Assembly (NCBI RefSeq): GCF_014201335.1 | Contig: NZ_JACHEB010000001.1 | Span: 310,001-374,000 of the forward strand | DNA length: 64,000 bases | Source: Tunturiibacter gelidiferens | GTDB taxonomy: Bacteria > Acidobacteriota > Terriglobia > Terriglobales > Acidobacteriaceae | Reading direction: 5' to 3' | Shown here: piece by piece, positions 7,346-29,417 of the stretch | Position numbering within the stretch: position 1 is the first letter of the stretch | How the letters are laid out: each line of letters starts with the position of its first letter | The notes under the pieces: model-generated | Told to the model about the DNA's origin: nothing | The model's database searches: none | The model's input: only the letters and a program-made list of their open reading frames with translations | Position numbers and translations under genes: made by a program

Positions 7346-7363
7346 AAGAGACCCGAAGCAGGA

Positions 7364-9359: not shown

Positions 9360-9491
9360 CTGTTACCTCGCCGTCATCCTCTGTGGGAAGCGTTGCAAGT
9401 ACACCTGAAGATTTCAGAATTACGCGTTTTTCGAGAAAGCTAAGCAGTCTCTGCTCGTCCAAACTGTTAATGAAGAACAGTGGAGGCGCTT

Positions 9492-11319: not shown

Positions 11320-11420
11320 CTACTCCTCCTCAAAGCCTAGGTGACACCAGTTTCCTCGACGGGGTCGCGGGACCTGGTGTGGTCATTGAAGAGATTGGAG
11401 ACGGAGCACACGAAGGAACA

Positions 11421-11541
11421 GTCGGTAAAAGCCACTGCTGAAACGGGTTATATGCATTTCTGCATATGGTCGATGATACTGGTTGATATCGGTTGGTACC
11501 AGTCAAAACCGCGGAAAAGTGTAGCCAGAGTGTAGCCAATT
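11421..11541. repeat. Long direct repeat, copy A (possible island left end)
   Basis: About 121 nt matching 29091-29201 in the same orientation with scattered substitutions and a 6-10 nt gap. It contains a 7-bp perfect hairpin (ATATGCA-TTTC-TGCATAT), a TTGGTACCAGTC segment, and a tandem GTGTAGCCA-GA-GTGTAGCCA near its right end. These look like binding sites of a site-specific recombinase, an inference only. Together with copy B it brackets the accessory genes from 11.8 to 29 kb. Confidence 0.7.
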
Positions 11542-11781
11542 CAGTGCACCGTTCTTGTCAGCCAGAAGGACTGGCCACGCGAGTGAGTTTAAGGCCTTCG
11601 GCATGGGTGGATTCACATTCTGCCAACCGGCTACCCTTCACACATCGTCGAAGACCAGTGGCGGAGTTGGCTTGTGAACCCATAACGATCGACGCCTATG
11701 TCGTCCAGCTAACATTTCGCGAACAGGCTTTGTCGGCTGCCCATATTCAGCTAAGCTGTTTGAGTTGTTCACTCTTGCTCA
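11542..11781. other. Non-coding leader before the PAS kinase
   Basis: 240 nt between repeat copy A and the sensor kinase. No gene, rRNA, tRNA or clear terminator seen; it presumably carries the kinase promoter. An AGCTAAGCT palindromic motif lies about 30 nt before the ATG. Confidence 0.4.
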
Positions 11782-14157
11782 ATGCCAAACGAAACCCCAG
11801 GCCCACTCAAAACTGAAAGAATTCATAAGAATCTGATCCAGGGCAAGAGCCAAATGGCCGACCTGATTCGAGCTCATGACTGGAGTTCGACTCCTCTTGG
11901 GGGAGTCGAGGACTGGTCTGAGGGCCTTTTGTCCTCCGTGAACCTCATGCTTGCGTGTGCCTTTCCCTCGCTGGTGTTCTGGGGGGAGGAGTTGGTGCAA
12001 CTCTACAACGATGCGTTTATTCCCCTTCTCTCGGAGCGCCATCCATCAGGTCTAGGCCAGAAGGCAGAGGAGTGCTGGTCCGATGCCTGGCAGATTGTTG
12101 GCCCAAATCTAAGAAGGGTCATGGATGATCGGGAGACCGTATACCACCAAAACGCGATAGTTCCGATCATCCGGGACGGCAGGTTGCAGGATATCCGGTG
12201 GACGTATAGCTATAGCCCGATCTTTGGTTCCGATGGGGCTGTTCTGGGCGTGCTTGTCATCTGCCAGGACATTACTCGCGAAGTGGGTGCAGTCCAAGAC
12301 CTCAGAGAGAGCGAGACTCGCGCTTCGCGCATATTGCAAAGCATCGGTGACGCCGTGATTGTGACGGACCCGGAGACTCGCATAACCCAGATGAATTCCG
12401 TCGCCGAACAACTGACTGGCTGGAAGCTCGGAGCAGCCAAGGGCGAATTGCTGGCAAATGTCTTTCAGATCGTCAATGAAGCCACTCGACAACCCCTGGA
12501 GAGTCCCGCAGACAAAGTCAGGAGCACAGGTTCGGTGGTTGGGCTCGCCAACCATACTGTTCTCATCTCCAAAGACGGAAGAGATGTTCCTATTGATGAC
12601 AGTGGCGCTCCTATTCTCGATGAGAGAGGAGCCCTCAACGGTATCGTTCTTGTATTTCGTGACATTGAAGAAAGGCGAGCCGCTGAGCGGGAGAGCGATC
12701 GCCTCACGGAGCGCTTGACTCAAGTATTGGGTGCGACGACGGATGCGATTGTGGGAGTGGACCGTAACTGGGTTATGACCTATCTCAATCCAAAGGCGAC
12801 TGAGCTCTACGCTTCCGATCGGCAGATCCTCGGCGGGAATATTTGGGAGGCATTCCCGGACGCGGTCTACGAGGGATCTCCTTACGTCGAACATTACTAC
12901 CGGGCGATGAACGAGAGGGTTTCGAGCGGGTTCGACGCGTATTATCCTGCGCCTCTTAATTTATGGCTTCACATCGATGTCTACCCAACAGGCGAGGGGA
13001 TCGTTACCTTTTCCCGAGATGTCACTGACGAGAGGAATGCTCGCGAAGCATTGAAGAGCAAGTCTGAACAAGCAGAACGCCAGCTTGCAGAGATTGAAAC
13101 CGTCTATCGTACCGCTCCAATCGGTTTGGCTTTGTTTGATACACAGGATTTCCGCTATCTGAGGCTCAACGACAGGCAAGCGGAGTTTTTCGGACTGAGG
13201 CCGGAACAGGTCGTTGGCCGCACCCTAACCGAGATGGCTCCGATTGAGGGGCTTAAAGAGTTGTTTGAACAAGTGCTTGCGGGGCAGCCGGTCGTCAATT
13301 TTCCTCTGGAAGGAGAATTGGTTACGCGTCCCGGGGAGCACCGCTACTGGACCGTGAGCTACTTTCCGGTGATTGGCGCTGGTGGCACCGTTCAGGCGAT
13401 CTCGGCAGCATCGCTGGAGATTACTCACCAAAGGAAGGCCGAGCTTGCTCTGATGCAGAGTGAAAAGCTGGCAGTCGTGGGACGGCTCGCGTCTTCGATT
13501 GCACACGAAATCAATAACCCGCTTGAATCTGTCACGAATCTCTTATATCTAGCGGAGCGTTGCGACGACATGACGGAGACCAGGACATATGTCCAGACTG
13601 CGGAGCGCGAGCTGCGTCGAGTGTCAGTTATCGTCAATCAAACTCTTCGATTTCATAAGCAGTCGAGCAGTCCCCAGGAGATCTCCGGAGATCAGCTCAT
13701 CGATAGCATCGTCTCCATGTTTCAGAGTCGCATTGTGAACTATGGCATACGCGTCGAAGAGCGCAAACGTATAGTGCCAGCAGTACGGTGTTTCGAGGGA
13801 GAGATCCGACAGGTACTCAGTAATCTGGTTAGCAACGCGATTGATGCCATGCAACCGCTGGGAGGCGGCCGGCTAATGTTGCGTAGTCGTGTCGGAAGAG
13901 ACTGGAACACAAAACGACGGGGACTTATCATCACCGTCGCAGATACCGGCAGCGGTATGTCAGCTTCGGTCGCGAAACGCATATTTGAGCCGTTCTATAC
14001 GACGAGGGGCATCAGTGGAACTGGTCTCGGACTTTGGGTAAGTAGCGAGATCGTTCTTCGACACCGAGGAACATTGCGCTTTCGGACCAGTGAGAGATAC
14101 GGTCGGAGCGGAACGGTCTTCTCATTATTCCTCCCGTTCGACGCGGTGACCAGGTAA
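11782..14157 (+). CDS. Multi-PAS sensor histidine kinase
   Basis: 791 residues with no clear membrane segment, so probably cytosolic. At least four PAS-type units can be seen: an N-terminal one with HDWSSTPLGGVEDWSEGL and LVFWGEELVQLYNDAF, then units starting near SIGDAVIVTDPETRI, GATTDAIVGVDRNWVM and RTAPIGLALFDTQDFR. The kinase core has a HisKA H-box (SIAHEINNPLESVTNLLYL, His near residue 575), an N-box LSNLVSNAIDAM, G1 VADTGSGMS and G2 GTGLGLWVSSEI. No receiver domain and no adjacent response regulator gene is present, so it is an orphan kinase. It is the first gene of a cluster of small stress-type genes following repeat copy A. The ATG at 11854 is an alternative start. Confidence 0.9.
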   Translation: MPNETPGPLKTERIHKNLIQGKSQMADLIRAHDWSSTPLGGVEDWSEGLLSSVNLMLACAFPSLVFWGEELVQLYNDAFIPLLSERHPSGLGQKAEECWSDAWQIVGPNLRRVMDDRETVYHQNAIVPIIRDGRLQDIRWTYSYSPIFGSDGAVLGVLVICQDITREVGAVQDLRESETRASRILQSIGDAVIVTDPETRITQMNSVAEQLTGWKLGAAKGELLANVFQIVNEATRQPLESPADKVRSTGSVVGLANHTVLISKDGRDVPIDDSGAPILDERGALNGIVLVFRDIEERRAAERESDRLTERLTQVLGATTDAIVGVDRNWVMTYLNPKATELYASDRQILGGNIWEAFPDAVYEGSPYVEHYYRAMNERVSSGFDAYYPAPLNLWLHIDVYPTGEGIVTFSRDVTDERNAREALKSKSEQAERQLAEIETVYRTAPIGLALFDTQDFRYLRLNDRQAEFFGLRPEQVVGRTLTEMAPIEGLKELFEQVLAGQPVVNFPLEGELVTRPGEHRYWTVSYFPVIGAGGTVQAISAASLEITHQRKAELALMQSEKLAVVGRLASSIAHEINNPLESVTNLLYLAERCDDMTETRTYVQTAERELRRVSVIVNQTLRFHKQSSSPQEISGDQLIDSIVSMFQSRIVNYGIRVEERKRIVPAVRCFEGEIRQVLSNLVSNAIDAMQPLGGGRLMLRSRVGRDWNTKRRGLIITVADTGSGMSASVAKRIFEPFYTTRGISGTGLGLWVSSEIVLRHRGTLRFRTSERYGRSGTVFSLFLPFDAVTR

Positions 14158-14307
14158 GAGCCCCATACAACATCCTGTACTGAAATCGTCATCTCATTGA
14201 GGCTAGGCAAGGCAAGCCAATCCGGATCAGTGCAATAGGTTCGAGAGGGTTTGAGTCAAGTTGGCTCGGCTCGGTGGCATCGCCTGGATCCGTAGCCAGG
14301 AGCTAAC

Positions 14308-14793
14308 GTGACGAAAACCCGATTACCAAACCAAAAGTTACCGAACGAAACTGCAGTGAGACTTTCGACTCAAATTGCTAAAGAGACGAGAGGAGATGCA
14401 TTCGGAAAGTTCGCAACCGTGGCTTCGGGATGGTTGGGATCGAAGTGGGCGTTTCTCGCGGCCATCTTGCTTATTGTGATTTGGGCAACTACGGGGTCGC
14501 TCTTTCACTACTCAGATACTTGGCAGCTGGTCATCAACACGGGAACTACTATTGTTACTTTTCTCATGGTCTTCCTGATTCAGAACACTCAGAACCGGGA
14601 TGCCCGAGCGATCAATCTCAAGCTGAACGAGCTTATCCATGCCATTGACACTGCCGGCGATCAAATGATGGACATCGAGAAGTTGAGTGATGAGGAACTA
14701 GATGTCCTGCAGTCTCGTTACGAAACGATTCGGGCTGAATGCATGGAACGAAACAAACGTAGCAATACGGGCAAGAAAGAGGTAGAAGCATGA
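14308..14793 (+). CDS. Low-affinity iron permease family membrane protein
   Basis: 161 residues from GTG 14308, 5 nt behind AGGAG. Two membrane helices, AAILLIVIWATTGSLFHYS and INTGTTIVTFLMVFLIQ, are followed by the conserved NTQNRDARAINLKLNELIHAI and a charged tail; this is the Iron_permease (PF04120) pattern. In fungi the family is linked to low-affinity iron uptake, while bacterial members are untested, so transport is not established. Its stop overlaps the next start by 4 nt (ATGA at 14790), so it is translationally coupled to the pyrophosphatase-like gene. Confidence 0.88.
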   Translation: MTKTRLPNQKLPNETAVRLSTQIAKETRGDAFGKFATVASGWLGSKWAFLAAILLIVIWATTGSLFHYSDTWQLVINTGTTIVTFLMVFLIQNTQNRDARAINLKLNELIHAIDTAGDQMMDIEKLSDEELDVLQSRYETIRAECMERNKRSNTGKKEVEA

Positions 14794-15323
14794 AGTCCTT
14801 GGCGGATCCAACAAAACTGAAACCCCTCGATAAAAAGGAAGGACTGGTGCAGGTCATCATCGAGAACCCCGCTAACAGTCGCAACAAATTCGCCTATGAT
14901 CCCGATCAGGGGATCTTCGCACTTAAGAAGGTGCTCCCTGCTGGCATGGTGTTTCCTTATGACTTCGGCTTTCTTCCTCAGACCCTTGCACCGGATGGTG
15001 ATCCTATCGACGTTCTTTTGCTGATGGATGAGCCCGCCTTTCCAGGATGCGCCGTTCGCGCTCGACTCGTTGGCGTCATCGAAGGGGAACAACTTGATGG
15101 GAAAAAGAAGATCAGAAACGACAGGTTGATTGCGGTAGCGGAAGCAAACCACCAATACGCCAATGTTCGAAAGCTCAAAGACCTCCCTTCTCAATGGATG
15201 AAGGAAGTGCAGGACTTCTTCGTGAACTATCACAATCTTGAAGGAAAAAAATATCGCCTGCTGGGATGTAGAGGCGCCGATGCGGCGATGACTTTGATCA
15301 AAGAGGCGATGAAAGCCGGCTGA
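14790..15323 (+). CDS. Divergent family I inorganic pyrophosphatase
   Basis: 177 residues. The fold is recognisable from FPYDFGFLPQTLAPDGDPID, which includes the two metal-binding aspartates of the D-x-D-P-x-D motif, and from RNDRLIAVAEAN. The usual E-x-P-x-G-S-x-x-K-Y-E is altered to ENPANSRNKFAYDPD, keeping the lysine. It therefore keeps most catalytic residues but is distinct from the housekeeping enzyme at 46569. By family it hydrolyses PPi to two phosphates; here it may act on another small phosphate compound or serve under stress. It overlaps the iron-permease gene by 4 nt and precedes two DUF3147 genes. Confidence 0.88.
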   Translation: MKSLADPTKLKPLDKKEGLVQVIIENPANSRNKFAYDPDQGIFALKKVLPAGMVFPYDFGFLPQTLAPDGDPIDVLLLMDEPAFPGCAVRARLVGVIEGEQLDGKKKIRNDRLIAVAEANHQYANVRKLKDLPSQWMKEVQDFFVNYHNLEGKKYRLLGCRGADAAMTLIKEAMKAG

Positions 15324-15344
15324 GAGGAAGAGGTTTTACAGCCT

Positions 15345-15692
15345 ATGAGCGAGATAATCTTTCGGTTTCTTATCGGAGGCTTTGTAGTAAGTATGTTCGC
15401 CACGATTGGAGATACACTTCGCCCCAAGAGTTTTGCAGGCCTGTTTGGAGCAGCACCCTCGATTGCTTTAGCGACCCTCGGGCTCACGATCGCAAAGAGC
15501 GGGGCCCAATACGCTGCGATCGAATCGAGATCTATGCTTCTTGGCGCAATTGGATTTTTCTTCTACACAATAGCTGTGTCGAAAGTTCTCAGGCGCTATA
15601 AGCCCTCGACGCTCGCGGCGACGATAAGTCTTATGCCTGTATGGTTCGGCGTTTCATTGGGCTTATGGTTTCTGACAATGAGGTCACACTGA
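15345..15692 (+). CDS. DUF3147 family membrane protein
   Basis: 115 residues, almost wholly membrane: about four hydrophobic helices (IIFRFLIGGFVVSMFATIGD, SFAGLFGAAPSIALATLGL, SMLLGAIGFFFYTIAVSKV, ISLMPVWFGVSLGLWFL), with the conserved GLFGAAPSIALATL turn. No known activity. It sits 1 nt before a second DUF3147-type gene; such tandem pairs suggest a two-subunit membrane complex, as for paired small transporters. That is inference. Confidence 0.82.
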   Translation: MSEIIFRFLIGGFVVSMFATIGDTLRPKSFAGLFGAAPSIALATLGLTIAKSGAQYAAIESRSMLLGAIGFFFYTIAVSKVLRRYKPSTLAATISLMPVWFGVSLGLWFLTMRSH

Positions 15693-15693
15693 G

Positions 15694-16131
15694 ATGATCA
15701 GGGTGGATCTGTCTTCGCTTCGGGAGACCAAACCGCATGAGTACGCGATGAGGTTCCTCTTTGGTGGGATGTGTACCGTTTTGGCAGGACTTATCGCAAA
15801 GCGATTCGGCCCGGCCGTCGGGGGGCTCTTTCTGGCATTTCCGGCCATCTTCCCGGCAGGTGCGAGTTTGATTGAAGATCACGAGAAGAAGCGCAAGGCT
15901 GAATATGGATTAGATGGAACCGTGCGAGGACGTCTGGCGGCCAGCATTGATGCGGAGGGTGCATCCCTCGGATGCATCGGCCTTATGGCATTTGCAATCG
16001 TTCTTTGGCGCGGAATACCCGGCCGCAATGCATACTGGGTAATTTCCGTTGCTTCGTGCGCCTGGATGCTGCTTTCAGGAGCACTTTGGGCACTAAGAAG
16101 AAAGCGCCTCTTTCATCACGGACCAAGATAA
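15694..16131 (+). CDS. DUF3147 family membrane protein, second of a pair
   Basis: 145 residues. It shares the G-GLFLAFPAIFPAGASLIE motif with its neighbour's GLFGAAPS segment, then has a charged loop (DHEKKRKAEYGLDGTVRGRL) and two C-terminal helices. It starts 1 nt after the first DUF3147 gene ends. Its 3' part (15959-16133) has a decayed copy at 29244-29417, to the right of repeat copy B, which shows that part of this block was once duplicated. Function unknown. Confidence 0.78.
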   Translation: MIRVDLSSLRETKPHEYAMRFLFGGMCTVLAGLIAKRFGPAVGGLFLAFPAIFPAGASLIEDHEKKRKAEYGLDGTVRGRLAASIDAEGASLGCIGLMAFAIVLWRGIPGRNAYWVISVASCAWMLLSGALWALRRKRLFHHGPR

Positions 16132-16156
16132 CGGGCCGCGTGCTACACTTCCGCGC

Positions 16157-16318
16157 ATGCCTCTGATAGTCATTCTCATCATCTTGTTAGTTCTCTTCGG
16201 CGGTGGCGGCTACTACATGGGCCCCGGAATCGGTTACTACGGTGGTGGTGGCATTAGCCTGATTCTCGGTTTGATCGTCATCTACCTGCTCTTTGGGCGA
16301 GGACGAGAACGACTCTAA
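16157..16318 (+). CDS. DUF3309 family small membrane protein
   Basis: 53 residues, read directly from ATG 16157 to TAA 16318. MPLIVILIILLVLFGGGGYY opens it, then a Gly/Tyr-rich turn and a second helix ending in FGRGRERL. This is the DUF3309 pattern: two short helices with a glycine-rich loop, about 50 residues long. Family members often accompany stress genes in soil bacteria. No activity is known. Confidence 0.85.
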   Translation: MPLIVILIILLVLFGGGGYYMGPGIGYYGGGGISLILGLIVIYLLFGRGRERL

Positions 16319-16429
16319 GCAATCGATCGTGACGTAACGACCAATGCCACCCCATCAATCCCTTGACGATGTGTCTGCATCAGACTGCGTGGAATGATCG
16401 CACGCATATGAGTGGCAGGAGCACAGGTC

Positions 16430-17221
16430 ATGGAAGATAAGTTGGCTTTAGTTACAGGTGCGTCGAGTGGAATCGGCCTCGAATTAGCGAAGGAATTAGC
16501 AAACAGAGGATATGACCTAGTCATTTCTTCGGCCGGTGAGAGACTGAGCGCAGCCGCAGAGGAGATACGGAGCAGCGGACATCAGATCGTTGAAGTGAAT
16601 GCCGATCTCGCAACAAGAGCAGGCGTTGATCAGCTATGGGCACAAGTTCAATCGCTTGGTCGTCCAGTCGACATTGCCTGCATCAACGCGGGCGTGGGAG
16701 TGGGCGGATTATTTTCCGAGACTGATCTTGACGCCGAGTTGAATATGGTTGAACTTAACTGTGTCGGAACCGTGCAGCTCGCGAAATTTGTGGTGCAACA
16801 CATGAAAGAGTTGAATGCCGGGAAGATTCTCTTTACTGCGTCCATTGCAGGTGAGATGGTCGCGCCACGTGAAGCGATCTACGCTGCGACAAAGGCATTT
16901 GTTCTTTCGTTTGCTCATAGCCTTCGGTACGAGTTGAAAGAAACCGGCATCACGGTCACGGCTCTTCAGCCGGGCCCAACCGATACAGACTTCTTTCATC
17001 GTGCAGGGATGGACGATACCGAGGTAGGGCAAAAAGGTAAATCTGAAAGCGAACCAAAGGATGTCGCCCGCCAGGGGATTGATGCACTGTTGGCCGGTAA
17101 AGATCACGTTTATGCTGCGTCGTTCAAGACGAAGCTCGAAGGTGCTCTGGCTAATGTCGTACCGGGAAATCTGAAAGCCGCAATGCACGAAAAGATGGCC
17201 AAGCCTAACTCTGAAAAGTAA
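16430..17221 (+). CDS. SDR family NAD(P)-dependent oxidoreductase
   Basis: 263 residues from ATG 16430 (AGGAG about 9 nt upstream; a GTG at 16412 is possible). Classical SDR: TGASSGIG at 9-16, NAGVGVGG, and YAATK as the catalytic Tyr-Lys pair. The extended PGPTDTDFFHRAGM segment places it in the DltE/YqjQ-like group of ketone or acyl reductases. No signal peptide. A strong hairpin follows at 17244. Substrate unknown. Confidence 0.88.
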   Translation: MEDKLALVTGASSGIGLELAKELANRGYDLVISSAGERLSAAAEEIRSSGHQIVEVNADLATRAGVDQLWAQVQSLGRPVDIACINAGVGVGGLFSETDLDAELNMVELNCVGTVQLAKFVVQHMKELNAGKILFTASIAGEMVAPREAIYAATKAFVLSFAHSLRYELKETGITVTALQPGPTDTDFFHRAGMDDTEVGQKGKSESEPKDVARQGIDALLAGKDHVYAASFKTKLEGALANVVPGNLKAAMHEKMAKPNSEK

Positions 17222-17243
17222 CAAGCAGAAACTTGATGGCGCG

Positions 17244-17267
17244 GAAGCCCGTCCTTTGACGGGCTTC
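17244..17267 (+). terminator. Stem-loop after SDR gene
   Basis: GAAGCCCGTC and GACGGGCTTC form a perfect 10-bp stem with a CTTT loop, 22 nt after the SDR stop. No clear T-run follows (TGATCGTTG), so it may work with Rho or act as an RNA-stability hairpin. Confidence 0.6.
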
Positions 17268-17386
17268 TGATCGTTGATAGTCAGACCACGCAATCACCGG
17301 TTTGTGCGTCTATGTTAGTACGTCTGTGAGCAAGCCGCCGGACGATCCCAAACATTGCGTTGCACGGATGCGCAAAGGAGATTGCG

Positions 17387-18025
17387 ATGTCCTCTGCCTT
17401 AAAGGAAAAGCCCTATGCGGAAGAAGTACCCACCACCAGCCCTGCGAGTGTGATTCTCAATGGACGTTATCTTCCTCCTCCTGAGGACAAAGATGGCAGA
17501 CTCTGGGTAAGAACCTCCGCGCTGATTCAAGCGAGCACCAACGATTTATACGCTATGTGGCGTAACGTCGAAGCCGCGCCTGGCTGGCAGGAACAAATTA
17601 AGCACGTTGCAGTCACAGGTGAGCGAACTTCGCATTGGGTGATGCAGTCCGGTGAAAAGACCATTGAATGGGATTCCGAAATCCTCGCGGACGAACCTGG
17701 GAGACGGATCGCATGGCGATCCATCGGTGGCGACTCGGACAATGCCGGTGAGGTGATCTTTGAACAGGCTCCTGGTAGCCGCGGTACCGTAGTGACGGTG
17801 CTGCAGGCGTTCCGCATCGACAAACTGACTAGCGCCTGGGAGACGTTCACGGGTCGCAATCCGAAACAAGCCGTGATTGAGAATCTGCGACACTTCAAAG
17901 CTCTTGCCGAGACGGGCGAGATCCCGAGGACTCAGGGACAACCTCATGAGGACCGCGGCTTGATTGGAAAGATGAAGATATCGACCTATGGTGAAAAAGT
18001 TCCTACGCCTTCGGGATCAAACTGA
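17387..18025 (+). CDS. SRPBCC (START-like) family protein
   Basis: 212 residues from ATG 17387, 6 nt after AAAGGAG. The SRPBCC cyclase/dehydrase-like core runs from about residue 45: LWVRTSALIQASTNDLYAMW, VEAAPGWQEQIKHVAV, and GRRIAWRSIGGDSDNAGEV (in pieces), with a helical C-terminus carrying IENLRHFKALAETGEIP. This fold binds hydrophobic ligands. The same kind of gene commonly neighbours formaldehyde-dehydrogenase-like ADHs in soil bacteria, as here (next gene 48 nt downstream). Function not known. Confidence 0.82.
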   Translation: MSSALKEKPYAEEVPTTSPASVILNGRYLPPPEDKDGRLWVRTSALIQASTNDLYAMWRNVEAAPGWQEQIKHVAVTGERTSHWVMQSGEKTIEWDSEILADEPGRRIAWRSIGGDSDNAGEVIFEQAPGSRGTVVTVLQAFRIDKLTSAWETFTGRNPKQAVIENLRHFKALAETGEIPRTQGQPHEDRGLIGKMKISTYGEKVPTPSGSN

Positions 18026-18073
18026 GCGACAAGCTCGCATTGGACATTGCCAGGAATCGAATTGGAGGAAGTC

Positions 18074-19264
18074 ATGAAGGCTGTTTGTTGGATGGGGAAG
18101 AGCAAAGTAGAAACGCTTACGGTAGCAGACCCGAAGCTTCTGAATCCGCATGACGCGATTATCAAGGTCACGCGAACTGCCATTTGCGGATCAGATCTTC
18201 ATCTCTACGACGGATTCATACCTACCATGGAATCGGGAGACATTCTGGGCCACGAGTTCATGGGTGTCGTCGAAGAAGTGGGGAAAGAGGTCACCAATCT
18301 GCGGCGCGGGGATCGAGTCGTTGTTCCATTCACGATTGCATGCGGCAACTGTCTCTTCTGCAAGAAGAAGATTTGGGCTGCGTGTGACAACAGCAATCCC
18401 AATGCTCATTTGATGGAAGCCGCATACGGATATTCAGGCTCGGGCCTGTTTGGCTACTCCCATATGATGGGCGGTTATGCTGGCGGGCAGGCGCAGTATG
18501 CGCGTGTTCCTTTTGCGAATGTAGGCCCACTGAAGATCGAAAGCGATCTTCCGGATGAGAAGGTGCTTTTCCTTTCCGATATCTTCCCGACCGGATATAT
18601 GGCGGCTGAAAATGCGCAGATCCAATCTGGAGATACGGTCGCGGTGTGGGGCTGCGGACCGGTAGGTCAGTTCGCAATTGCAAGCGCGTTCATGCTTGGG
18701 GCTGCACGAGTTATCGCAATTGATCGTATACCGGAACGACTTGAGATGGCGCGAAGCCTCGGGGCAATCACGGTCGACTATTCCGAGGAGGATGTCAGCG
18801 TTCTCACCGCACTCAAAGATCTAACTGGTGGCATTGGCCCGGACGCGTGCATTGATGCCGTTGGTCTCGAGGCTCATTCCGCTCAACTTCAGGGAACCTA
18901 CGACAAGGTCAAGGTCGCTCTGATGATGGAGACCGATCGACCAAGCGTACTCCGGCAGGCAATTCAGGCTGTCCGCAAGGGCGGCACCTTGTCGGTGCCT
19001 GGAGTCTATGGTGGCCTTCTCGATAAAGTGCCGTTTGGGGCGGCTTTTGGTAAGGGCATCACTATGAAGATGGGCCAGACCAACATGCATAACTACATGA
19101 AACCTCTGCTTGAGCGGATCGAGAAAGGACAGATCGATCCGAGCTACATCATCTCTCATCGCATCACGCTTGAGCAGGCGCCTGAGATGTACAAGGTCTG
19201 GAGAGACAAGAAAGAGAATGTGACAAAGATCGTGATCGATCCTTGGGCAAACGCCGCAGCCTAG
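18074..19264 (+). CDS. Zinc-dependent alcohol dehydrogenase, formaldehyde-dehydrogenase-like
   Basis: 396 residues from ATG 18074 behind GGAGGAAG. MDR-family enzyme: catalytic zinc ligands Cys38, His60 and Glu61 ([14 protein letters not shown]), structural-zinc cysteines 90, 93, 96 and 104 in [16 protein letters not shown], and a Rossmann motif [11 protein letters not shown]. The long insert after the structural zinc site ([20 protein letters not shown]) marks the glutathione-independent formaldehyde dehydrogenase-like branch. By family it oxidises alcohols or aldehydes with NAD. It lies between SRPBCC and Tat-type SDR genes, probably as one stress/detoxification unit. Confidence 0.9.
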
Positions 19265-19324
19265 GCAAGATACCTTTTGGCGTTATGACAATAACAATCA
19301 CCATAGTCTGTGGAGTTGCTGAAT

Positions 19325-20332: not shown

Positions 20333-20366
20333 AGTTCTGAGCTACTTCCAAAAAACTTCACCTATA

Positions 20367-22051: not shown

Positions 22052-22611
22052 CGATCAAGGCGGAAATCTGCGTGACGTTCCGAGTGTTCCAGACTCAGCT
22101 CCTTGATATTCGAGATGACCTGATGGACATTGTCCCCGCTCAAAAGATGATCGGGAGAGAAGCCGAGCCAATGTGCAGCAAGAAATGTGCCGCCGGGGCT
22201 AATCTGGGTGATCAGTCGATCTATGAGAGATGCCAATTGGGATTCAGCGAAGTAATATCCGATCTCGCTGAATACGACCAGATCGAACTCACCGGTTGGC
22301 ATCTGGTCTGGCATCGATGCGCACATAATGTGGACGTTTGTTTGGGTGCTGCAGCGTTGACGCGCCCGATCGACTGCGATGCAGGAGATCTCCATCGCTT
22401 CTACCTCGTCACAGATCGAAGCTAGTCGCTCTGTCAGGACTCCGATAGAACATCCCGGTTCGAAAGCGCGTTTGTATCGACTACGAGGGACAGCTTGAAG
22501 AATGCGTTCGTAACGCCCAAGCTCATAACTACTCGACGAGAAGCTCCACGGATCCGGGCTGCTCTCGTAGAGCGCATCAAAAAAGGCGCGACTTGTAGTG
22601 TTCCTGATCAT
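22036..22611 (-). CDS. SAM-dependent methyltransferase (NodS-like)
   Basis: 191 residues from ATG 22611, chosen because it forms an ATGA overlap with the PIG-L stop at 22608. Class I fold: motif I FEPGCSIGVLTERLA, acidic loop EAMEISCIAVDRARQR, and FDLVVFSEIGYYF as motif IV. The opening SRAFFDALYESSPDPWSF is typical of the NodS-type N-methyltransferases, which methylate deacetylated amino sugars. That matches a preceding PIG-L deacetylase. Related genomes encode PIG-L and this enzyme fused in one protein. Specific substrate unknown. Confidence 0.87.
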   Translation of the reverse strand: MIRNTTSRAFFDALYESSPDPWSFSSSSYELGRYERILQAVPRSRYKRAFEPGCSIGVLTERLASICDEVEAMEISCIAVDRARQRCSTQTNVHIMCASMPDQMPTGEFDLVVFSEIGYYFAESQLASLIDRLITQISPGGTFLAAHWLGFSPDHLLSGDNVHQVISNIKELSLEHSERHADFRLDRWVRL

Positions 22612-23300
22612 GAAGGCAAAAAGATCTCGGCCGAACGTCGGGCAGGCCAAAGCAGCTCATCCGGAAGGATGGGTTCTCCCGAAGGATGCTCCAATTGAGA
22701 ACGGTACAGAGATAACGCACTAAGCTTTGAGCGCCGATGATCAGCACTGAGAGAAAGCGACCGCAGAGGCAGGTTCTTAAGCAGCTGTGGTGTTCCGCGG
22801 TGCCACGTCCAAAAAAAATAAAAGGTGAGCGATGCTCCCGCACGCTGCGCAACTGTCTGCGCTACGCGACCGCAGGCTTCATGGTCTGGATGAAAGTCTC
22901 CTATCCATGGAGCAAAGATGTGGGTTTCTCTAGAAACGAGCGGGAGGAGGCGTTCTGTGAGAGTGCTTTCTTCAGAGCTGACAGCGCTGTCAGTAAGCCC
23001 GAGACGAATAACGTCGCCGGGCTTCAAACCTAGTTGCTTAACTGCCGCACTTTGTTCCATCCGTCGGTTCGCAGCAAGAGTAGGGCCGCCCCGGCCATAT
23101 GCGTTCTCGCCGTCTGTTACGGCGACTACCTGCACAGGAACGCCTTCCGAAACTTGTGTTGAAATCAAGCCCCCGGCTCCGAGAGTTTCATCGTCCGGAT
23201 GTGGTGAAATCACAAGGACATTCTTCCCAGATGGTTGCCACGACGTCGCGGCTTGCCACATGGGTGACCACTCTTCTTCTAGAGACAGGGGTACGATCAT
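22608..23300 (-). CDS. PIG-L (LmbE) family deacetylase
   Basis: 230 residues. The zinc motif appears as VISPHPDDETLGAGG near residue 33 (HPDD), with PDHEACGRVA as the distal histidine motif. By family, it removes acetyl from N-acetylglucosamine-type groups, as in mycothiol and bacillithiol synthesis (MshB, BshB). It is the first gene of a four-gene reverse-strand operon (deacetylase, NodS-like methyltransferase, GT2, acyl-CoA-dehydrogenase-like) joined by overlaps. No BshA or BshC type partner is nearby, so thiol synthesis is not indicated. Confidence 0.88.
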   Translation of the reverse strand: MIVPLSLEEEWSPMWQAATSWQPSGKNVLVISPHPDDETLGAGGLISTQVSEGVPVQVVAVTDGENAYGRGGPTLAANRRMEQSAAVKQLGLKPGDVIRLGLTDSAVSSEESTLTERLLPLVSRETHIFAPWIGDFHPDHEACGRVAQTVAQRAGASLTFYFFWTWHRGTPQLLKNLPLRSLSLSADHRRSKLSALSLYRSQLEHPSGEPILPDELLWPARRSAEIFLPS

Positions 23301-23574
23301 AGGTCAACTCAAATTGTCTGATGCATGAAACTCCTGAATCGCCAAAGCTAAGAGACATCCGGCCGTGTGTTTTTGATAGCACCCACGTTCTTTGCAAATT
23401 CAACGAGCAGGTGATGATTCCATGGCTGGAGCAAGGAAGGGCTTGGTGATCCTGCCGCGTTTTACGGAGTTAAACCTCACCCGCTTGAAGAAACGGCTGG
23501 GAGTCGGATTGAGACTCATCAAATGATGCTCGAAGTCGGTCAAAACCATATTGCGAAGATGCTCTGAGGCGTAG

Positions 23575-24159
23575 CTACTGCGCCAAAGTCCTAAACGTAA
23601 GTGAGTAGCGTAGCGAGTCGACGGGCGGGATACTATGCTCCCATCGCGTTCGAACTTCGCCTTCCAGAATGTAGATCGATCGTGGTTTGAGTATTTGGGA
23701 CTTGCGAATCCAGCTCGTGCCGGTTGAAAGGCGAAGGCGCATGATTGCCGGTGCCAGAAGCGAAACCCCAACGATCACACCAAATTCCGGCTTGTCTTTG
23801 TGCCAGCCTATTCCAGCGCCTGGCGGATATTGATTTACTCCGCCTTGCTGAATTTCATCGATGTTCCTCCCCGCGAAATCTGCGGCCTTTCTGCGGAGCT
23901 CTTCGATAAACAGCGGAAACCTTTCCGTTGGCTCAACCGTACGACGTGCATAGTCATAGCGAAGACCAAAAGATGTTACACGTCGATTGCCAACATGACC
24001 GTGAAATTCGAATGGTTTGAGCTCGAGTGTTGCAAGTGAGGCGACGAGAGCAGCCTCATCAGCTTCACTGATGATGTCCTCTTGATAACGAAAGCCACTC
24101 GGCATAGTAGGCGCTTGGGTACTCTCTAGTTCAGCGAAGAGACCTTTCTGCGTTGCCAT
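23575..24159 (-). CDS. AlkB-like alpha-ketoglutarate-dependent dioxygenase
   Basis: 194 residues from ATG 24159, with AGGAGG about 6 nt upstream. The 2OG-Fe(II) core is clear: GVNQYPPGAGIGWHKDKPEF supplies His and Asp of H-x-D, WEHSIPPVDSLRYSLTFR supplies the distal His and the arginine pair that binds 2-oxoglutarate. Members repair alkylated bases or act on RNA. It lies 20 nt behind the DUF763 gene on the same strand, a likely two-gene repair operon. The nucleotide-recognition lid is short, so the substrate class cannot be set. Confidence 0.88.
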   Translation of the reverse strand: MATQKGLFAELESTQAPTMPSGFRYQEDIISEADEAALVASLATLELKPFEFHGHVGNRRVTSFGLRYDYARRTVEPTERFPLFIEELRRKAADFAGRNIDEIQQGGVNQYPPGAGIGWHKDKPEFGVIVGVSLLAPAIMRLRLSTGTSWIRKSQILKPRSIYILEGEVRTRWEHSIPPVDSLRYSLTFRTLAQ

Positions 24160-24179
24160 CAGAACCTCCTGGAAGGTCT

Positions 24180-25394
24180 TCAAAATAGATTCAGCTGAGA
24201 CGTTGGTGCCGACTGTTTGTCCTGTGGCTTGTCATCAAGAACCGTCCTGCCGCCGATCGATGCAGAGATTGCTCGCTCGTGAGCTATCGCGGTGTCGAAA
24301 TCTGCAAACGGCTGCCGATTCGCCTCGACATTACGGATCAATTGATCCAATCGCCGGAAGCCCTCAAGTTTTTCGGTGTGGCCCAGTCGAGCTGCTTCCA
24401 GAGAGCGACGCAGGATGGCGAGCGAGTCATCGTAGACCTTTAGTGGAACCGGAAAAGGGTGCCCATCCTTGCCACCATGTGCGATTGAGAAGCGTGCCGG
24501 ATCGGAGAAACGGCTGGGGGCACCATGTACGACTTCGGCAATGAGAGCAAGAGATTGTAGCGTTCGTGGACCGAGACCTTCTACCAGGAGTAGCGAGGCG
24601 AAGTCTCGTAGGTCTTTTTCATGTGCGACTGCCAGGACTGCGCCTAGTCGCTCCAAATCGACATCCTTGGCACGGACATCGTGATGCATTGGCATCGAAA
24701 GCTTGCGGGCGTCGCCTAAGACCTTTTCAAAAGGACTTTTTGCAATTACAAGCAAAGCATCTCTTGCCCTTTCGGAACGGGCGTCCACCAGATTCCGAAT
24801 CTCACCCTGGGGTTCGCCTACGATGGCGGTGTGTGGGTCGGACACGAAGTCCCGCACTGTAGCTGAATGCCAGTGATACCTCCGCGCTACGCGATTTTGA
24901 GCATTCATCCCCTGCTGTACAACGGCCCATTCGCCGGATCGCGTGACTACGAAGGAGTGCAGATAAAGCTGGAATCCGTCTGCAATGGCGTTGTTGTCCA
25001 CTCGCGCCGTCAGCCGGCTGGTGCGTGCCAATGTATCTCCATCAAGTCCAGTCTTCATAGAAAAAGCACGAAGTTCATCCGAGGTGCGGATGGAATGTCG
25101 GCCACGACCTCCGCAGACCATCAAACCAAGATCCGAAAAACGTGGATTGAGACCACGCTTCAGTGCTCCGAGTACCGAAGTCGTGATGCCAGATGAGTGC
25201 CAATCCATACCCATGACTGCTCCATAAGACTGAAACCAGAATGGATCACTCAATCGCGTCAGAAATTCGGATTGGCCATAGTTTAAAATCACCTGCTCGG
25301 CGATGGCTGTTCCTAGCGCAGTCATGCGATTGGCCAGCCACGTAGGCACACGCCCTCCGTGGAGCGGAAGATCGGCAATGCCGGAGCGTTTCAT
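24180..25394 (-). CDS. DUF763 domain-containing protein
   Basis: 404 residues, full length for the family (COG1415). It opens with the conserved MKRSGIADLPLHGGRVPTWL, contains MVCGGRGRHSIRTSDELRAF, and has a helix-hairpin-helix-like LLLVEGLGPRTLQSLALIAEV near residues 270-300 (shown in part), which suggests DNA binding. No biochemical role is established. The immediate coupling to an AlkB-type gene supports, but does not prove, a nucleic-acid repair role. C-terminus is low complexity and ends in SQLNLF, resembling a short clamp- or partner-binding peptide (inference). Confidence 0.88.
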   Translation of the reverse strand: MKRSGIADLPLHGGRVPTWLANRMTALGTAIAEQVILNYGQSEFLTRLSDPFWFQSYGAVMGMDWHSSGITTSVLGALKRGLNPRFSDLGLMVCGGRGRHSIRTSDELRAFSMKTGLDGDTLARTSRLTARVDNNAIADGFQLYLHSFVVTRSGEWAVVQQGMNAQNRVARRYHWHSATVRDFVSDPHTAIVGEPQGEIRNLVDARSERARDALLVIAKSPFEKVLGDARKLSMPMHHDVRAKDVDLERLGAVLAVAHEKDLRDFASLLLVEGLGPRTLQSLALIAEVVHGAPSRFSDPARFSIAHGGKDGHPFPVPLKVYDDSLAILRRSLEAARLGHTEKLEGFRRLDQLIRNVEANRQPFADFDTAIAHERAISASIGGRTVLDDKPQDKQSAPTSQLNLF

Positions 25395-25689
25395 TGGATG
25401 ATATCGTATTTATTATTCGCCATTTGTTCGCTTTAAGCAATCTGATGACTGGTTAGTAGCAATGACCATCATGCAGGAGCAGTCAGCTTTATTCTTAGCG
25501 CCAACCCTGACTTCAACGCCATGCACTGAAGAATGGCAGTACCGAAAAAGGCCGAGAAAGCTCAGCGGAAAACGGACGCGAATAGAGAAAACGATGTCAC
25601 TCTTTGACGATCAGGGCTAACGACTACAACAGCGGACGAGGTAATTAATTCCGTGCGCCGTCCGGTTTATCTCCTTCCCTTTGGAAGGA
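25395..25689. other. Non-coding gap, 295 bp, with small hairpin
   Basis: No supported gene. CCTTCC-CTTT-GGAAGG at 25673-25688 forms a 6-bp hairpin just beyond the stop of the GH13 gene on the reverse strand and could be a weak terminator. The right part of the gap would also hold the DUF763 promoter on the left side. Confidence 0.4.
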
Positions 25690-27255
25690 CTAAGAAATGA
25701 TCTTAACGATTACACCTTCCGAACCTCGTAGCTCTATAAAGTTGCCGACCTGCTCCAAGTCACGACGAAAATCGGTCCCCGTGAGAATTATCCCGGCTTC
25801 TGTCTCCGCATGAATCGGACTTTGACCTAAATTGAGCAACACCACCAAGCGCTGGTTCCCGTCGCTTCGTTCGTAGCATAAGAGATCTCCTAAAGTTGTG
25901 AGGACGCCCAAATGGCCACCTACCAGCATTGGGTAAGCACGCCTGAGAGCGATCAATCTGCGATACAGGTTCAGGATGGACGCTTTATCGCTTTCTTCAA
26001 CCTCAACATTCACCGTCTGATGATCGGCCCCGATAGGCAGCCAAGGCCGACCCTGCGTGAAGCCGGCTTTCTCGGATGAGTCCCACGTCAAAGGAGTACG
26101 TTCGGGATCTCGTCCCATCCCGATTCCCGGCTGCCTCTTTTCCGCGGGATCTTGCACGTCTTCCGCCCGAATCAAGGCGTTCGTCATACCGATCTCTTCG
26201 CCATAATAGATCGTCAATGTTCCGGGAAGAGTGAGCAACAGCATAGCTGCTATCACGCTTTGTGAACGGCCAACTCTTGTCGCGATCCGCGCATTATCAT
26301 GATTTCCCAATACCCAATTTGGCCATGCTCCATGCGGTAACACTTTCATATATTCGGAGACAACCCTGGCAATGGCTTGCGCGTTCCAGGTACATTGGAG
26401 CAGCAGGAAGTTAAACGGCAGATTTGCTCCGTTCAAATCCAGTCCGTAGTAAGTCATCAAATCTTTTAAGGGGAGATATATCTCTCCTATCAGGACGCGT
26501 TCGGGATAGCTGTCAATCAGAGATCGCATCTCTGCGACGACCTCGTGCACCTCGGGCCGGTTGGAGTTGTATATCGTTAGCAAGCTGTTGCCGGAGGATT
26601 GAGTTGCACTGAACTCAGGATTCGGTGGATTGTCGCGATATTGATCGTCCTTGATGATGAGCCACATGACATCAACGCGAAATCCGTCCACACCTTTGTC
26701 CAGCCAGAACCGGAGCACGTCGAACATAGCCGCGCGGACATCAGGGTTACGCCAGTTCAGATCCGGTTGTTCTTTTAAAAAGGAGTGATAGTAATACTGA
26801 TTCGTGCGTTCATCCCACTCCCAACCCGAACCACCAAAGTTGCTCCTCCAATTGTTCGGTTCATCGCGCCACAAATACCAATCTCGTTTCAGATTCTCAC
26901 GAGAAGATCGACTCTCTATAAACCAAGGATGTTGATCGGAAGAATGATTGGGAACGAAATCGAGGATTAACCTGAGATTTCGGCGATGTGTTTCCTCGAG
27001 AAGGCGATCGAAATCCTCCATGGTTCCGAAAATTGGATCAATGCTGCAATAACCAGCGACGTCATATCCGAAATCAGCCATGGGAGATCGATAGATCGGC
27101 GCTACCCAAATAGCGTCGACACCGAGTCGAACCAGATAATCCAGGCGCTGGATGATGCCATCCAAATCTCCGATGCCATCCTCGTTGCTATCTTGAAACG
27201 ATCGAGGATAGACCTCGTATATCACTGCGGATTGCCACCAGACAGGATTGTGCAT
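25690..27255 (-). CDS. GH13 alpha-glucosidase/oligo-glucosidase-like
   Basis: 521 residues with no signal peptide. (beta/alpha)8 GH13 enzyme: region I DFVPNHSSD, nucleophile Asp195 in GFRVDVMW, acid/base Glu258 in LIGEIYLP and Asp320 in VLGNHDNARI. QPDLNWRNPDVR between A and B domains is typical of alpha-glucosidases, oligo-1,6-glucosidases and sucrose or trehalulose-type enzymes. It would cleave or transfer alpha-linked glucose in the cytosol. Divergent from a trehalose-synthase-like GH13 gene 46 nt away, sharing one promoter region. Exact linkage specificity cannot be read from sequence alone. Confidence 0.9.
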   Translation of the reverse strand: MHNPVWWQSAVIYEVYPRSFQDSNEDGIGDLDGIIQRLDYLVRLGVDAIWVAPIYRSPMADFGYDVAGYCSIDPIFGTMEDFDRLLEETHRRNLRLILDFVPNHSSDQHPWFIESRSSRENLKRDWYLWRDEPNNWRSNFGGSGWEWDERTNQYYYHSFLKEQPDLNWRNPDVRAAMFDVLRFWLDKGVDGFRVDVMWLIIKDDQYRDNPPNPEFSATQSSGNSLLTIYNSNRPEVHEVVAEMRSLIDSYPERVLIGEIYLPLKDLMTYYGLDLNGANLPFNFLLLQCTWNAQAIARVVSEYMKVLPHGAWPNWVLGNHDNARIATRVGRSQSVIAAMLLLTLPGTLTIYYGEEIGMTNALIRAEDVQDPAEKRQPGIGMGRDPERTPLTWDSSEKAGFTQGRPWLPIGADHQTVNVEVEESDKASILNLYRRLIALRRAYPMLVGGHLGVLTTLGDLLCYERSDGNQRLVVLLNLGQSPIHAETEAGIILTGTDFRRDLEQVGNFIELRGSEGVIVKIIS

Positions 27256-27301
27256 CTAATGTTGCTCCCCGGGGAAAATTTCGAACTGAAAGATTGCTCG
27301 C

Positions 27302-28963
27302 ATGATCAATGACCTCTGGTACAAGAACGCAGTTATCTATTGCCTTTCAGTCGCAACTTATATGGATGCAAATGGAGACGGCTGCGGCGATTTTCAGGGA
27401 CTAATGCGCCGTCTGGATTACCTGCAAGGACTGGGTGTCACTGCGATTTGGCTGATGCCGTTTCAACCATCTCCCTGCAAGGATGATGGGTATGATGTCG
27501 CCGACTACTACGGAGTCAACCCTCGCTATGGGACGCTCGGCGACTTTGTCGAGTTCACGCATGGTTGCAAACAGCGTGGATTGCGCGTGCTGATCGACCT
27601 GGTGGTCAACCATACCTCTAACGAACATCCTTGGTTCCAGGCGGCACGTCGCGATCCGCAATCTAAATATCGCGATTGGTATGTGTGGTCGAAGAAGAAG
27701 CCGAAGAATGCCGCCTCAGGAGTAGTGTTCCCCGGTGTACAGAAGTCGACATGGACCTATGATGAGGTTGCCAAGGCCTATTACTTCCATCGCTTTTACG
27801 ATTTCCAACCGGACCTCAATACTTCCAATCCTGAAGTACAGGCTGAGATCCTTAAGATCATGGGCTTCTGGTTGCAACTTGGAGTCTCCGGTTTTCGCAT
27901 GGACGCCGTTCCATTTGTCATTTCGCAAAAGGGTGCAAAGGTAGCCAAACCAGAAGAACACTACGATATGCTACGGACCTTTAGCCAGTTCCTAACCTGG
28001 AGAGAAGGAGAAGCAATTATTCTGGCCGAAGCGAACGTGCTCCCAGGAACCGACATGAAATATTTCGGCTCAGCTGGTGAGCGCGTGCAGATGATGTTCA
28101 ACTTCGAGGTAAACCAGCACCTTTTTTATGCGCTCGCCACCAGCGATTCTCGACCCCTTGTCAAGGCGATGCGCTCGACAAAATCGAGACCTGCTACGGC
28201 GCAGTGGGGGCAATTTCTCAGAAATCATGATGAACTCGACCTCGGACGTCTAGAAGTCGAGCAGAGAGAGGCCGTCTTCAGCAAATTTGGCCCCGATCCG
28301 GACATGCAGCTCTACCAGCGCGGTATTCGACGTCGGCTCGCCCCGATGCTGCAAGGTGATCGTCGCCGACTGGAGCTCGCTTACAGTTTGATGATGACCT
28401 TACCTGGCACACCGGTGATTCGCTATGGCGACGAGATTGGAATGGGAGACGATCTCGCTCTGCGCGAACGAAACTGTGCCCGAACGCCGATGCAATGGTC
28501 AACAGAGCCGCAAGCAGGCTTCACAAAAAGTGATCATCCAGTGCTGCGTGTCATCAGTGATGGCCCCTATGGTTTTCAGCACGTCAACGTGGCCGATCAG
28601 CGCCGGGATCCGAACTCGCTTCTTAACTGGATGGAACGTATTGTTCGCATGCGCAAGGAGGTTCCCGAGATTGGCTGGGGTGACTTTTCTTTTGTCTCGG
28701 CAGGTACTCCAGAGGTCCTGGTAATGCAGTACAGCTGGCGTAATAATTCCGTCCTATGCGTACACAACCTTAGCGGCCAACCACGAGAGATTCGATTCTC
28801 TCTTCAATTTGAAGAGAAGCAATGTATGCTCGCGAATCTCTTGTCCGATGACCACAGCCAACCTGATCGGGGTGGCAAACACTCCATGCTGCTTGAACCG
28901 TACGGCTATCGCTGGTTTAGGGTTTGTGGCTTGGACTACTTGCTCAAACGATCAGACATTTAA
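27302..28963 (+). CDS. GH13 trehalose synthase (maltose glucosyltransferase)-like
   Basis: 553 residues. It opens WYKNAVIYCLSVATYMDANG, the TreS-like start, with region I DLVVNHTS, nucleophile Asp201 (GFRMDAVPF), acid/base Glu243 (LAEANVLPG) and Asp310 (LRNHDELDLG). The LRNHDELDL segment is characteristic of the TreS/maltokinase-linked group rather than amylases. By family it interconverts maltose and trehalose, a desiccation and osmotic protectant. No maltokinase domain is fused and no glgE or pep2 gene is nearby. Other GH13 activities remain possible. It is the last intact gene before repeat copy B. Confidence 0.87.
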   Translation: MINDLWYKNAVIYCLSVATYMDANGDGCGDFQGLMRRLDYLQGLGVTAIWLMPFQPSPCKDDGYDVADYYGVNPRYGTLGDFVEFTHGCKQRGLRVLIDLVVNHTSNEHPWFQAARRDPQSKYRDWYVWSKKKPKNAASGVVFPGVQKSTWTYDEVAKAYYFHRFYDFQPDLNTSNPEVQAEILKIMGFWLQLGVSGFRMDAVPFVISQKGAKVAKPEEHYDMLRTFSQFLTWREGEAIILAEANVLPGTDMKYFGSAGERVQMMFNFEVNQHLFYALATSDSRPLVKAMRSTKSRPATAQWGQFLRNHDELDLGRLEVEQREAVFSKFGPDPDMQLYQRGIRRRLAPMLQGDRRRLELAYSLMMTLPGTPVIRYGDEIGMGDDLALRERNCARTPMQWSTEPQAGFTKSDHPVLRVISDGPYGFQHVNVADQRRDPNSLLNWMERIVRMRKEVPEIGWGDFSFVSAGTPEVLVMQYSWRNNSVLCVHNLSGQPREIRFSLQFEEKQCMLANLLSDDHSQPDRGGKHSMLLEPYGYRWFRVCGLDYLLKRSDI

Positions 28964-29090
28964 GACCCAATGTGCGTTTAATGGTGAAAGGTGGTGTTTT
29001 GCGCCTGACTGTTGAGCTCTACCTTTTCTCTGTTGCAAGTGTGGGACTCGAATCGACCTTTTTGTCCGTCTTTTTGGAAGCAGTTAGATA
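28964..29090. other. Non-coding gap before repeat copy B
   Basis: 127 nt without a supported gene or structured RNA. It precedes the repeat at 29091. Confidence 0.4.
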
Positions 29091-29201
29091 GTCGGTAAGA
29101 GCCACTGCTAAAACGGGTTACATGCATTTCTGCATGTGGTCAATGATATCTGTTGGTACCGGTCAAAATGGAGGAAAAGTATAGCCAGAGTGTAGCCAAT
29201 T
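29091..29201. repeat. Long direct repeat, copy B (possible island right end)
   Basis: About 111 nt in the same orientation as copy A (11421-11541). The hairpin is conserved with a paired change (ACATGCA-TTTC-TGCATGT here, a C-G pair where copy A has T-A), as are GTTGGTACC-GTCAAAA and TATAGCCAGAGTGTAGCCAATT. A deletion of 6-10 nt relative to copy A lies just before TGTTGGTACC. Confidence 0.7.
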
Positions 29202-29243
29202 GGCGATGACGCGATCTACCCCCGCGAGCTTCGGGCAAAGTCC

Positions 29244-29417
29244 GTGCATCCCTCGGATGTATTGGTCTTATGGCATTTGCAATCGTTCTTTGTCGCGGAA
29301 TACCGGTCGCAATGCCTCTTGGGGTGACTACCCTAGCTTCATGCGACTAGATCCTGCTTTCGGCAGTACTTTGGGCGGGGAGAAGAAGGCGCTCCTTCAT
29401 CGCGGACTAAGATAACG
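29244..29417 (+). pseudogene. Decayed 3' fragment of DUF3147 gene
   Basis: 174 nt aligning along its length with 15959-16133, the 3' third of the second DUF3147 gene: both share GTGCATCCCTCGGATG, TATGGCATTTGCAATCG and the terminal AAGATAACG. Small indels break the reading frame and there is no start. It lies 43 nt after repeat copy B, whereas in the intact block this segment is 4.4 kb after copy A, so most of a second element was deleted. Confidence 0.75.

Follow-up and report, generated by a model that had tools for sequence, protein, structure and literature searches.

What placed a cluster of stress-related genes between long direct repeats in the genome of the soil acidobacterium Tunturiibacter gelidiferens (GCF_014201335.1; 6.18 Mb in 23 contigs)? 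The cluster lies in a 64,000-nucleotide stretch of DNA, here called the window, which comprises positions 310001 to 374000 of contig NZ_JACHEB010000001.1 (C1). Bare positions are in window numbering, and self-comparison and local scans covered the 124 kb around the window (C1:270001-394000). An earlier note on this DNA had described the cluster as a stress-type island whose repeats resemble the attachment ends of an integrated element. Our analysis indicates that the cluster (segment 2 in Table 1) is the middle third of a 48.6-kb block that was probably built by repeated insertion of mobile elements at a tRNA-Ser(GCT) gene. The island most likely spans these 48.6 kb and consists mostly of accessory genes. 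Judged by their sequences, the three copies of the repeat (A, B, and C) are likely the left, tRNA-distal ends of such elements, left over as attachment ends, and the integrase gene of the elements has probably since been lost.

The two repeats reported earlier were recovered where they had been placed and in the same orientation. A gapped alignment of B with C has 101 identities, 11 mismatches, and one 10-bp gap (BLAST E value, ~5e-30 in the 124-kb self-comparison). A search of the whole genome returned eight matches, of which three are real copies, all on the plus strand of one contig and within 33 kb, and five, at 14 to 15 bases, look like chance. The identity between A and B is 95%, and that of C to the others is 80 to 83%. 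The likeness between A and C runs 48 to 49 bp further to the left (from C1:306288 in A and from 29042 in C), an extension that is absent from B. Both A and B terminate in TGTAGCCAGAGTGTAGCCA; read from the tRNA side, this gives two copies of TGGCTACA at 11 bp, and the paired site of C differs by one base. The paired site GTGTAGCCAGAGTGTAGCCAATT has two matches in the window versus none in 100 shuffles. A small inverted repeat is present at 11448-11475 in B (ATATGCA..TGCATAT) and at 29118-29145 in C (ACATGCA..TGCATGT), and by eye from the alignment its pairing is kept through a change on both sides.

A repeat of this kind could be a dispersed intergenic element whose three locations carry no meaning. 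The small internal inverted repeat fits such an element, and the genus does have dispersed repeats, among them a stretch of ~185 bp at C1:303327-303511 (L010:13327-13511; L-numbers denote loci or stretches examined), of which this genome and others of the genus have many copies. Yet the three copies all lie within 33 kb and in one orientation, and A adjoins a tRNA-Ser end. The repeat occurs in no genome but its own among 150 searched (149 others), and the exact 20-mer of its right end is confined to this genome among 199 (198 others). Because it was found in no other genome searched, the repeat is not dispersed; within what was searched this idea is refuted, and we find it scarcely credible. 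No match to the repeat was found in plasmids, phages, or viral contigs either, and a plasmid, phage, or viral source was rejected on that ground.

The right border of the block is given by the tRNA gene. Its last 23 bases, the core, have one other match at up to 5 edits in the 124 kb, a fragment that differs by 3 edits and lies on the same strand at C1:306278-306298, the left edge of copy A. At up to 3 edits the region holds two matches to the tRNA end (the tRNA itself and the fragment) versus none in 40 dinucleotide shuffles. Fragment and tRNA are 48.6 kb apart, and the three repeat copies divide this distance into segments of 14,964, 17,500, and 15,666 bp. As is usual for a tRNA-associated genomic island, one flank of the block is a tRNA gene and the other carries a repeat of that tRNA's 3' end. 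Composition was rejected as a marker of the island, the G+C content being 0.530 to 0.563 within it and 0.543 and 0.563 outside. An integrase gene beside the tRNA, which is common in such islands and not required in decayed ones, is lacking here. The earlier remark that no integrase is visible holds for tyrosine integrases: 29 matches to PF00589 were found genome-wide and none in C1:270001-394000 (serine recombinases were not searched). No transfer families were detected among the open reading frames (ORFs) scanned with Pfam, a scan that covered part of the ORFs.

These borders bear on the proposal in the earlier note that a single 17.7-kb stress island is bounded by B as its left and C as its right attachment site (attL and attR). 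In its favor are the long direct repeats that flank the segment and the fact that homology to a relative's genome, G054 (G-numbers denote relatives' genomes), stops at the start of B. The existence of a third copy, A, weakens it, no target gene is found at B or C, and the block that G054 carries at a second site spans 11655-23607 and not B to C. Because all three copies have the make-up of left ends, with the tRNA as right end and copy A as left end, the evidence does not support B and C as the two ends of one element, and we regard a single B-to-C island as very improbable. What stands of the proposal is that the repeats look like attachment-type sequences of integrated DNA.

Our reading of all three copies as left attachment arms is based mainly on an island in another genus (G084), which shows the same plan. 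Among 300 family genomes, the pattern TGTAGCCAN{2,5}TGTAGCCA has three sites, in two genomes, outside this one. Two of them, in G084 and G306, lie near a tRNA-Ser 3'-end fragment, and the distance between the pair and the final 12 bases of this fragment is 169 bp in G084 and 168 bp in G306, compared with 166 bp in A. The remaining site (G306:C129) was taken as chance, since it looks coding and no tRNA end was seen beside it. In G084, a TGGCTACA pair with one change lies 28 bp after tRNA-Ser(GGA), the N-terminal part of a broken gene matches in two frames the integrase family described below, and ~14 kb more DNA lies past this broken gene, with cargo ORFs that by eye read as a formate-dehydrogenase operon. 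The far end has its own TGGCTACA pair, at 525381, followed by two tRNA-Ser 3' ends, at 525542 and 525663, which are 121 bp apart (L119:10150 and 10271). Near and far pairs thus occur together in one island in G084, and a far pair was seen in G306. Here, the far pair is found in A and B, and in C with one change, and the tRNA-side pair is TGATACT. On sequence grounds, the G084 plan is that of copy A plus the tRNA at our locus.

Relatives also show the tRNA to be a place where DNA content changes. A scan of genome contigs with a tRNA-neighboring pyrophosphatase gene gave 49 loci, 37 of them with an ARAGORN-predicted tRNA-Ser(GCT); most of the 37 cover ~8 kb past the tRNA, and four have less than 300 bp. 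The pyrophosphatase side of the tRNA is conserved, synteny stops at tRNA-Ser, and the downstream side is different in nearly all 37 loci. The closest relatives of proteins from segments 1 to 3 on that side are in strain KBS 146 (L060), where a match to segment 2 starts 135 bp after tRNA-Ser(GCT) and includes SRPBCC and alcohol dehydrogenase (ADH) genes (80% and 93.5%); weaker relatives past the tRNA are an SDR (51%) in the same strain and a response regulator (52%) at another locus. The 197 ORFs downstream of the tRNA include four protein families common to at least two loci. The largest, found at four loci (L040, L066, L075, and L082), is a tyrosine integrase (PF00589) that starts 41 to 146 bp past tRNA-Ser(GCT), and a fifth locus (L049) has an integrase of a different type after the tRNA.

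The L040 integrase, used as a query, has matches in 27 of 62 same-genus genomes. Thirty loci of the family were returned, 10 with a tRNA directly upstream and 20 with none seen; the 10 tRNAs are nine tRNA-Ser (five GCT, two TGA, and two CGA) and one tRNA-Trp. One of the 20 (G034) has an exact tRNA-Ser(GCT) pattern ~320 bp upstream. In G055, nearly the same integrase-side end lies by tRNA-Ser(GCT) and by tRNA-Ser(CGA) (L167 and L191); therefore, integrases of this family are not limited to one serine tRNA. At some loci, a short direct repeat occurs twice, 12 to 13 bp apart, in the stretch between tRNA and integrase (TGGCTACA in L040, TGTGACA in L075, GTTACTA in L066, and TGCTACC in L082), and an exact 7-mer pair is present at 5 of the 10 tRNA-adjoining family loci, one of these being doubtful. 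The pair that ends A and B matches the tRNA-side pair of L040 in both 8-mer and orientation. No second tRNA-Ser end that would mark the far end of an element was found with fewer than 5 edits within 13 to 80 kb at the tRNA-Ser elements L082, L060, L049, L066, L075, and L040. Three stretches of viral contigs fit the pattern of the L040 integrase, none of which was confirmed. No close member of the family was found in this genome, the nearest (C6:309370, on another contig) being 29% identical. In Bryocella elongata, a second tRNA-Ser-like 3' end lies ~100 bp past tRNA-Ser(GCT) (L074:12266).

The three segments of the block are distributed separately in relatives. In G054 (one contig), the interval from tRNA-Ser(GCT) to the left-flank gene contains segment 1, collinear and at ~80 to 90% identity, and lacks segments 2 and 3; a tRNA-end fragment at the left end of segment 1 agrees with that of A at 16 of 16 bases. 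The segment 2 block is found in G054 at a distance of 2.85 Mb from segment 1 on the same contig, where the adjoining ORFs look by eye like LigD and Ku. The main block of segment 3 (12.5 kb) is collinear at unrelated sites in G047, G028, and G036 (80%, 80%, and 70%), and the 13-kb flanks of these three sites match neither each other nor this region beyond the block. From tRNA-Ser(GCT) to DUF4142, on the left flank of A, the interval is 10.1, 10.1, 16.2, and 26.2 kb in G060, G013, G028, and G054, respectively, and 50.6 kb here. DUF4142 matches were taken as syntenic if they lay on the contig of the tRNA, within less than 30 kb and in the right orientation; others were left out as nonsyntenic (e.g., G061, G041, G052, G002, and G048) or as being on the wrong side (G035), and matches to part 2928-3112 of the left-flank query, which is the dispersed repeat itself, were excluded. 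Both the 37 loci and these intervals show content that varies between relatives, as is characteristic of tRNA-associated islands. The earlier note had named conserved synteny of the segment, together with a dispersed repeat, as what would speak against an island; in the relatives examined the segment is nonsyntenic, and the repeat is private to this genome. At the left end of segment 1 in G054 (L150), the apparent 3' half of another tRNA, which by eye reads like tRNA-Glu, adjoins the tRNA-Ser fragment.

Several observations weigh against a stack of inserted elements. In G054, the tRNA-end fragment is followed directly by segment 1, with no arm A between them. A core is missing from copy B, whose start falls in a rearranged gene with a longer counterpart in G054; the homology of segment 1 to G054 stops five bases into B, and its last 88 bp are inverted in that genome. 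The core at C is decayed. The pair beside the tRNA is TGATACT and not TGGCTACA, and besides it no TGATACT pair was found at 1 mismatch. The right end resembles the integrase side of G044 and of L040 only over short stretches (22 of 26 and 19 of 22 bases), which lie at nearly equal offsets and score barely above the maximum of 200 shuffles (32 versus 30 and 29 versus 26); three other ends compared with the right end fall below the shuffle maximum. No integrase relic was found by tblastn in C1:270-394 kb (best E value, 0.31). Paired repeats by a tRNA are not particular to the L040 family, half of whose 10 loci are without an exact 7-mer pair or have a doubtful one; all three other integrases of this genome with an upstream tRNA have a paired repeat. 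A backwards control pattern gave five sites outside this genome versus three for the true one, and the number of pattern sites is by itself uninformative. Finally, DNA of G047 that matches C1:285705 comes 2.8 kb after the tRNA, because of which the variable zone may extend as far as 285.7 kb and have its outer border beyond A.

It is because of these points (the missing arm A in G054, B without core, the decayed core at C, the TGATACT pair, the weak right end, the missing relic, and G047) that we keep a second explanation, which we judge unlikely but well above the two dismissed above. It supposes a single integration, marked by A and the tRNA. The arm would later have been duplicated or recombined to give B and C, and homologous or illegitimate rearrangement, in place of site-specific insertion, would have brought in segments 2 and 3. 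The close likeness of A to B, at 95% compared with 80 to 83% for C, would suit it, as would the start of the coreless copy B in a broken gene with an inverted neighbor. It would also suit this explanation that relatives carry the segment 2 and 3 blocks where the stretches examined contain no tRNA-Ser. Against it, C has 48 bp more than B in common with A, on the core side and including part of the core region, which is what an attachment end of its own would show; tRNA-Ser is used repeatedly in relatives; and the far end of G084 has two tRNA ends in a row.

Under the favored explanation, repeated insertion at the tRNA, circular elements would be joined to the tRNA-Ser 3' end by an integrase of the L040 family. 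Arm-type sites are known for other tyrosine integrases, and the paired TGTAGCCA sites ~160 bp inside the left end are predicted, by analogy, to be arm-type binding sites of this integrase. Each insertion would leave one repeat copy as a left attachment end, and newer elements would enter between the tRNA and older ones, pushing the older ones outward. Decay of the integrase genes, and of the cores of copies B and C, would follow. What is seen now is three arms in a row, with a core that is readable at A, decayed at C, and absent at B. The stack is probably fixed by now unless an integrase from elsewhere acts on it.

Table 1. Coordinates of the repeat copies, segments, and associated features (window numbering unless a contig is named; C56 belongs to G084).
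Feature	Position	Strand	Remarks
tRNA-end fragment with copy A	C1:306278-306455		Outside the window, to its left
Copy A	C1:306337-306455	+	3.5 kb left of the window; 95% to B
Segment 1	C1:306456-321419		14,964 bp; part in window, 1-11419; bounded by A and B
Copy B	11420-11541	+	Without tRNA core; start falls inside a broken gene
Paired site GTGTAGCCAGAGTGTAGCCAATT in B	11519-11541	+	TGGCTACA twice, read from the tRNA side
Segment 2	11542-29041		17,500 bp; stress-type island of the earlier note
Segment 2 block	11655-23607	+	Collinear in G054, C1:2223749-2235656; 94%, ~12 kb
SRPBCC, ADH, and SDR genes	17360-20332	+	Relatives (80%, 93.5%, 51%) by tRNA-Ser(GCT) in KBS 146 (L060)
Copy C	29042-29201	+	Part matching B, 29090-29201; longer left part common to A; core decayed
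Segment 3	29202-44867		15,666 bp
DUF3147 gene relic	29244-29417	+	82% to 15959-16133, the end of the second DUF3147 gene
Segment 3 main block	29575-42053		Three Big_3_5 proteins, one with a pro-kumamolisin activation domain; two-component pair
hrpB helicase C-terminal fragment	42302-42931	-	Inside segment 3
Paired repeat TGATACT-AGCTC-TGATACT	44820-44838	-	30 bp past the tRNA 3' end; read as tRNA-side arm site
tRNA-Ser(GCT)	44868-44959	-	Right border of the island; last 23 bases (44868-44890), core
tRNA-Ser(GGA) of G084	C56:510754-510843		

Apart from the DUF3309 gene, the accessory and stress-related genes named in the earlier note for segment 2 agree with Pfam. The segment encodes a PAS histidine kinase, an iron permease, a pyrophosphatase, two DUF3147 proteins, SDRs, a Polyketide_cyc protein of the SRPBCC type, a zinc ADH, a PIG-L protein with a methyltransferase and a glycosyltransferase, DUF763 with a 2OG-Fe(II) oxygenase, and two GH13 proteins. 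For the zinc ADH, the best NCBIfam model is the glutathione-independent formaldehyde dehydrogenase, far below its cutoff. A 53-amino-acid ORF at 16157-16318 may be the DUF3309 gene mentioned earlier. PADLOC, run on 10 proteins, gave two partial matches, from which a defense role was not adopted.

To the right of C, the decayed piece of an island gene that had been noticed there was confirmed as a DUF3147 relic. It had been taken as a sign of a second element at the same end. The second element itself finds its counterpart in segment 3, between C and the tRNA, but the relic is an older remnant and not a recent duplicate, because it is about equally far from the copy here (82%) and from the corresponding copy in G054 (83%), the two segments being ~94% alike. 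For the hrpB fragment, ~90% identical DNA is present at other places in G013, G054, and G028. Beyond the tRNA, by 2.3 kb, 36 bases at 47209-47244 are like part of tRNA-Ser(GCT) in inverted orientation (75%) and are perhaps another tRNA relic. A cobalamin riboswitch at 51291-51465 (Rfam RF00174; 86 bits) lies outside the island.

The founding work on cis-mobilizable elements and their accretion was reportedly done in Streptococcus. Accretion as described in one account leaves decayed, integrase-less elements that keep their attachment ends while newer ones enter at the tRNA side (PMC5704250). Our locus would resemble these in its integrase-less decayed elements with newer ones at the tRNA side; in contrast, attL and attR are kept and movement was shown there, whereas the ends here are decayed and known from sequence alone (PMC5704250). 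In Dehalococcoides, several islands lie in a row downstream of ssrA, each bounded by a short repeat of the ssrA 3' end; some have no integration genes, and the authors suggest cis-mobilizable elements and accretion (PMC3146451). Tandem islands at one RNA gene, repeats of its 3' end, and lost integration genes would be common to both systems, but ssrA and a serine recombinase are involved there and tRNA-Ser and a tyrosine-integrase family here, where the core is readable at A alone and no integrase is left (PMC3146451). The acidobacterium Solibacter usitatus is described as having candidate islands near tRNA genes with degenerate mobile genes (PMC3174227). The location near a tRNA and the decayed mobile genes are as in our case; unlike our case, those islands were called by composition and mobile genes, with neither attachment ends nor a tandem stack in the passages available (PMC3174227). 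The kind of structure, tandem tRNA islands, is already known, and our locus is probably a decayed case of it, with tRNA-Ser and a different integrase family. No account of tRNA-Ser integrase islands in acidobacteria was found in the literature searched, part of it as titles and openings of abstracts.

From these findings, tRNA-Ser(GCT) stands out as a hot spot for insertions in Edaphobacter, Granulicella, and their relatives. More tentatively, and at a probability that we consider low, Acidobacteriaceae might harbor a class of cargo-only islands not described before, passengers with a portable left arm of ~160 bp, a paired TGTAGCCA site, and a tRNA-Ser end, which would be moved in trans by a family of tRNA-Ser-specific tyrosine integrases belonging to other elements. 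If this were true, cargo-only islands would let resident clusters (stress genes, secreted protease-like operons, and redox operons) be picked up and stack by serine tRNAs. The end structure, i.e., a tRNA-Ser end, ~160 bp, and the paired TGTAGCCA site, could flag integrase-less islands in this hard-to-culture group, and the locus shows how unrelated stress, redox, and secreted-protein clusters become neighbors.

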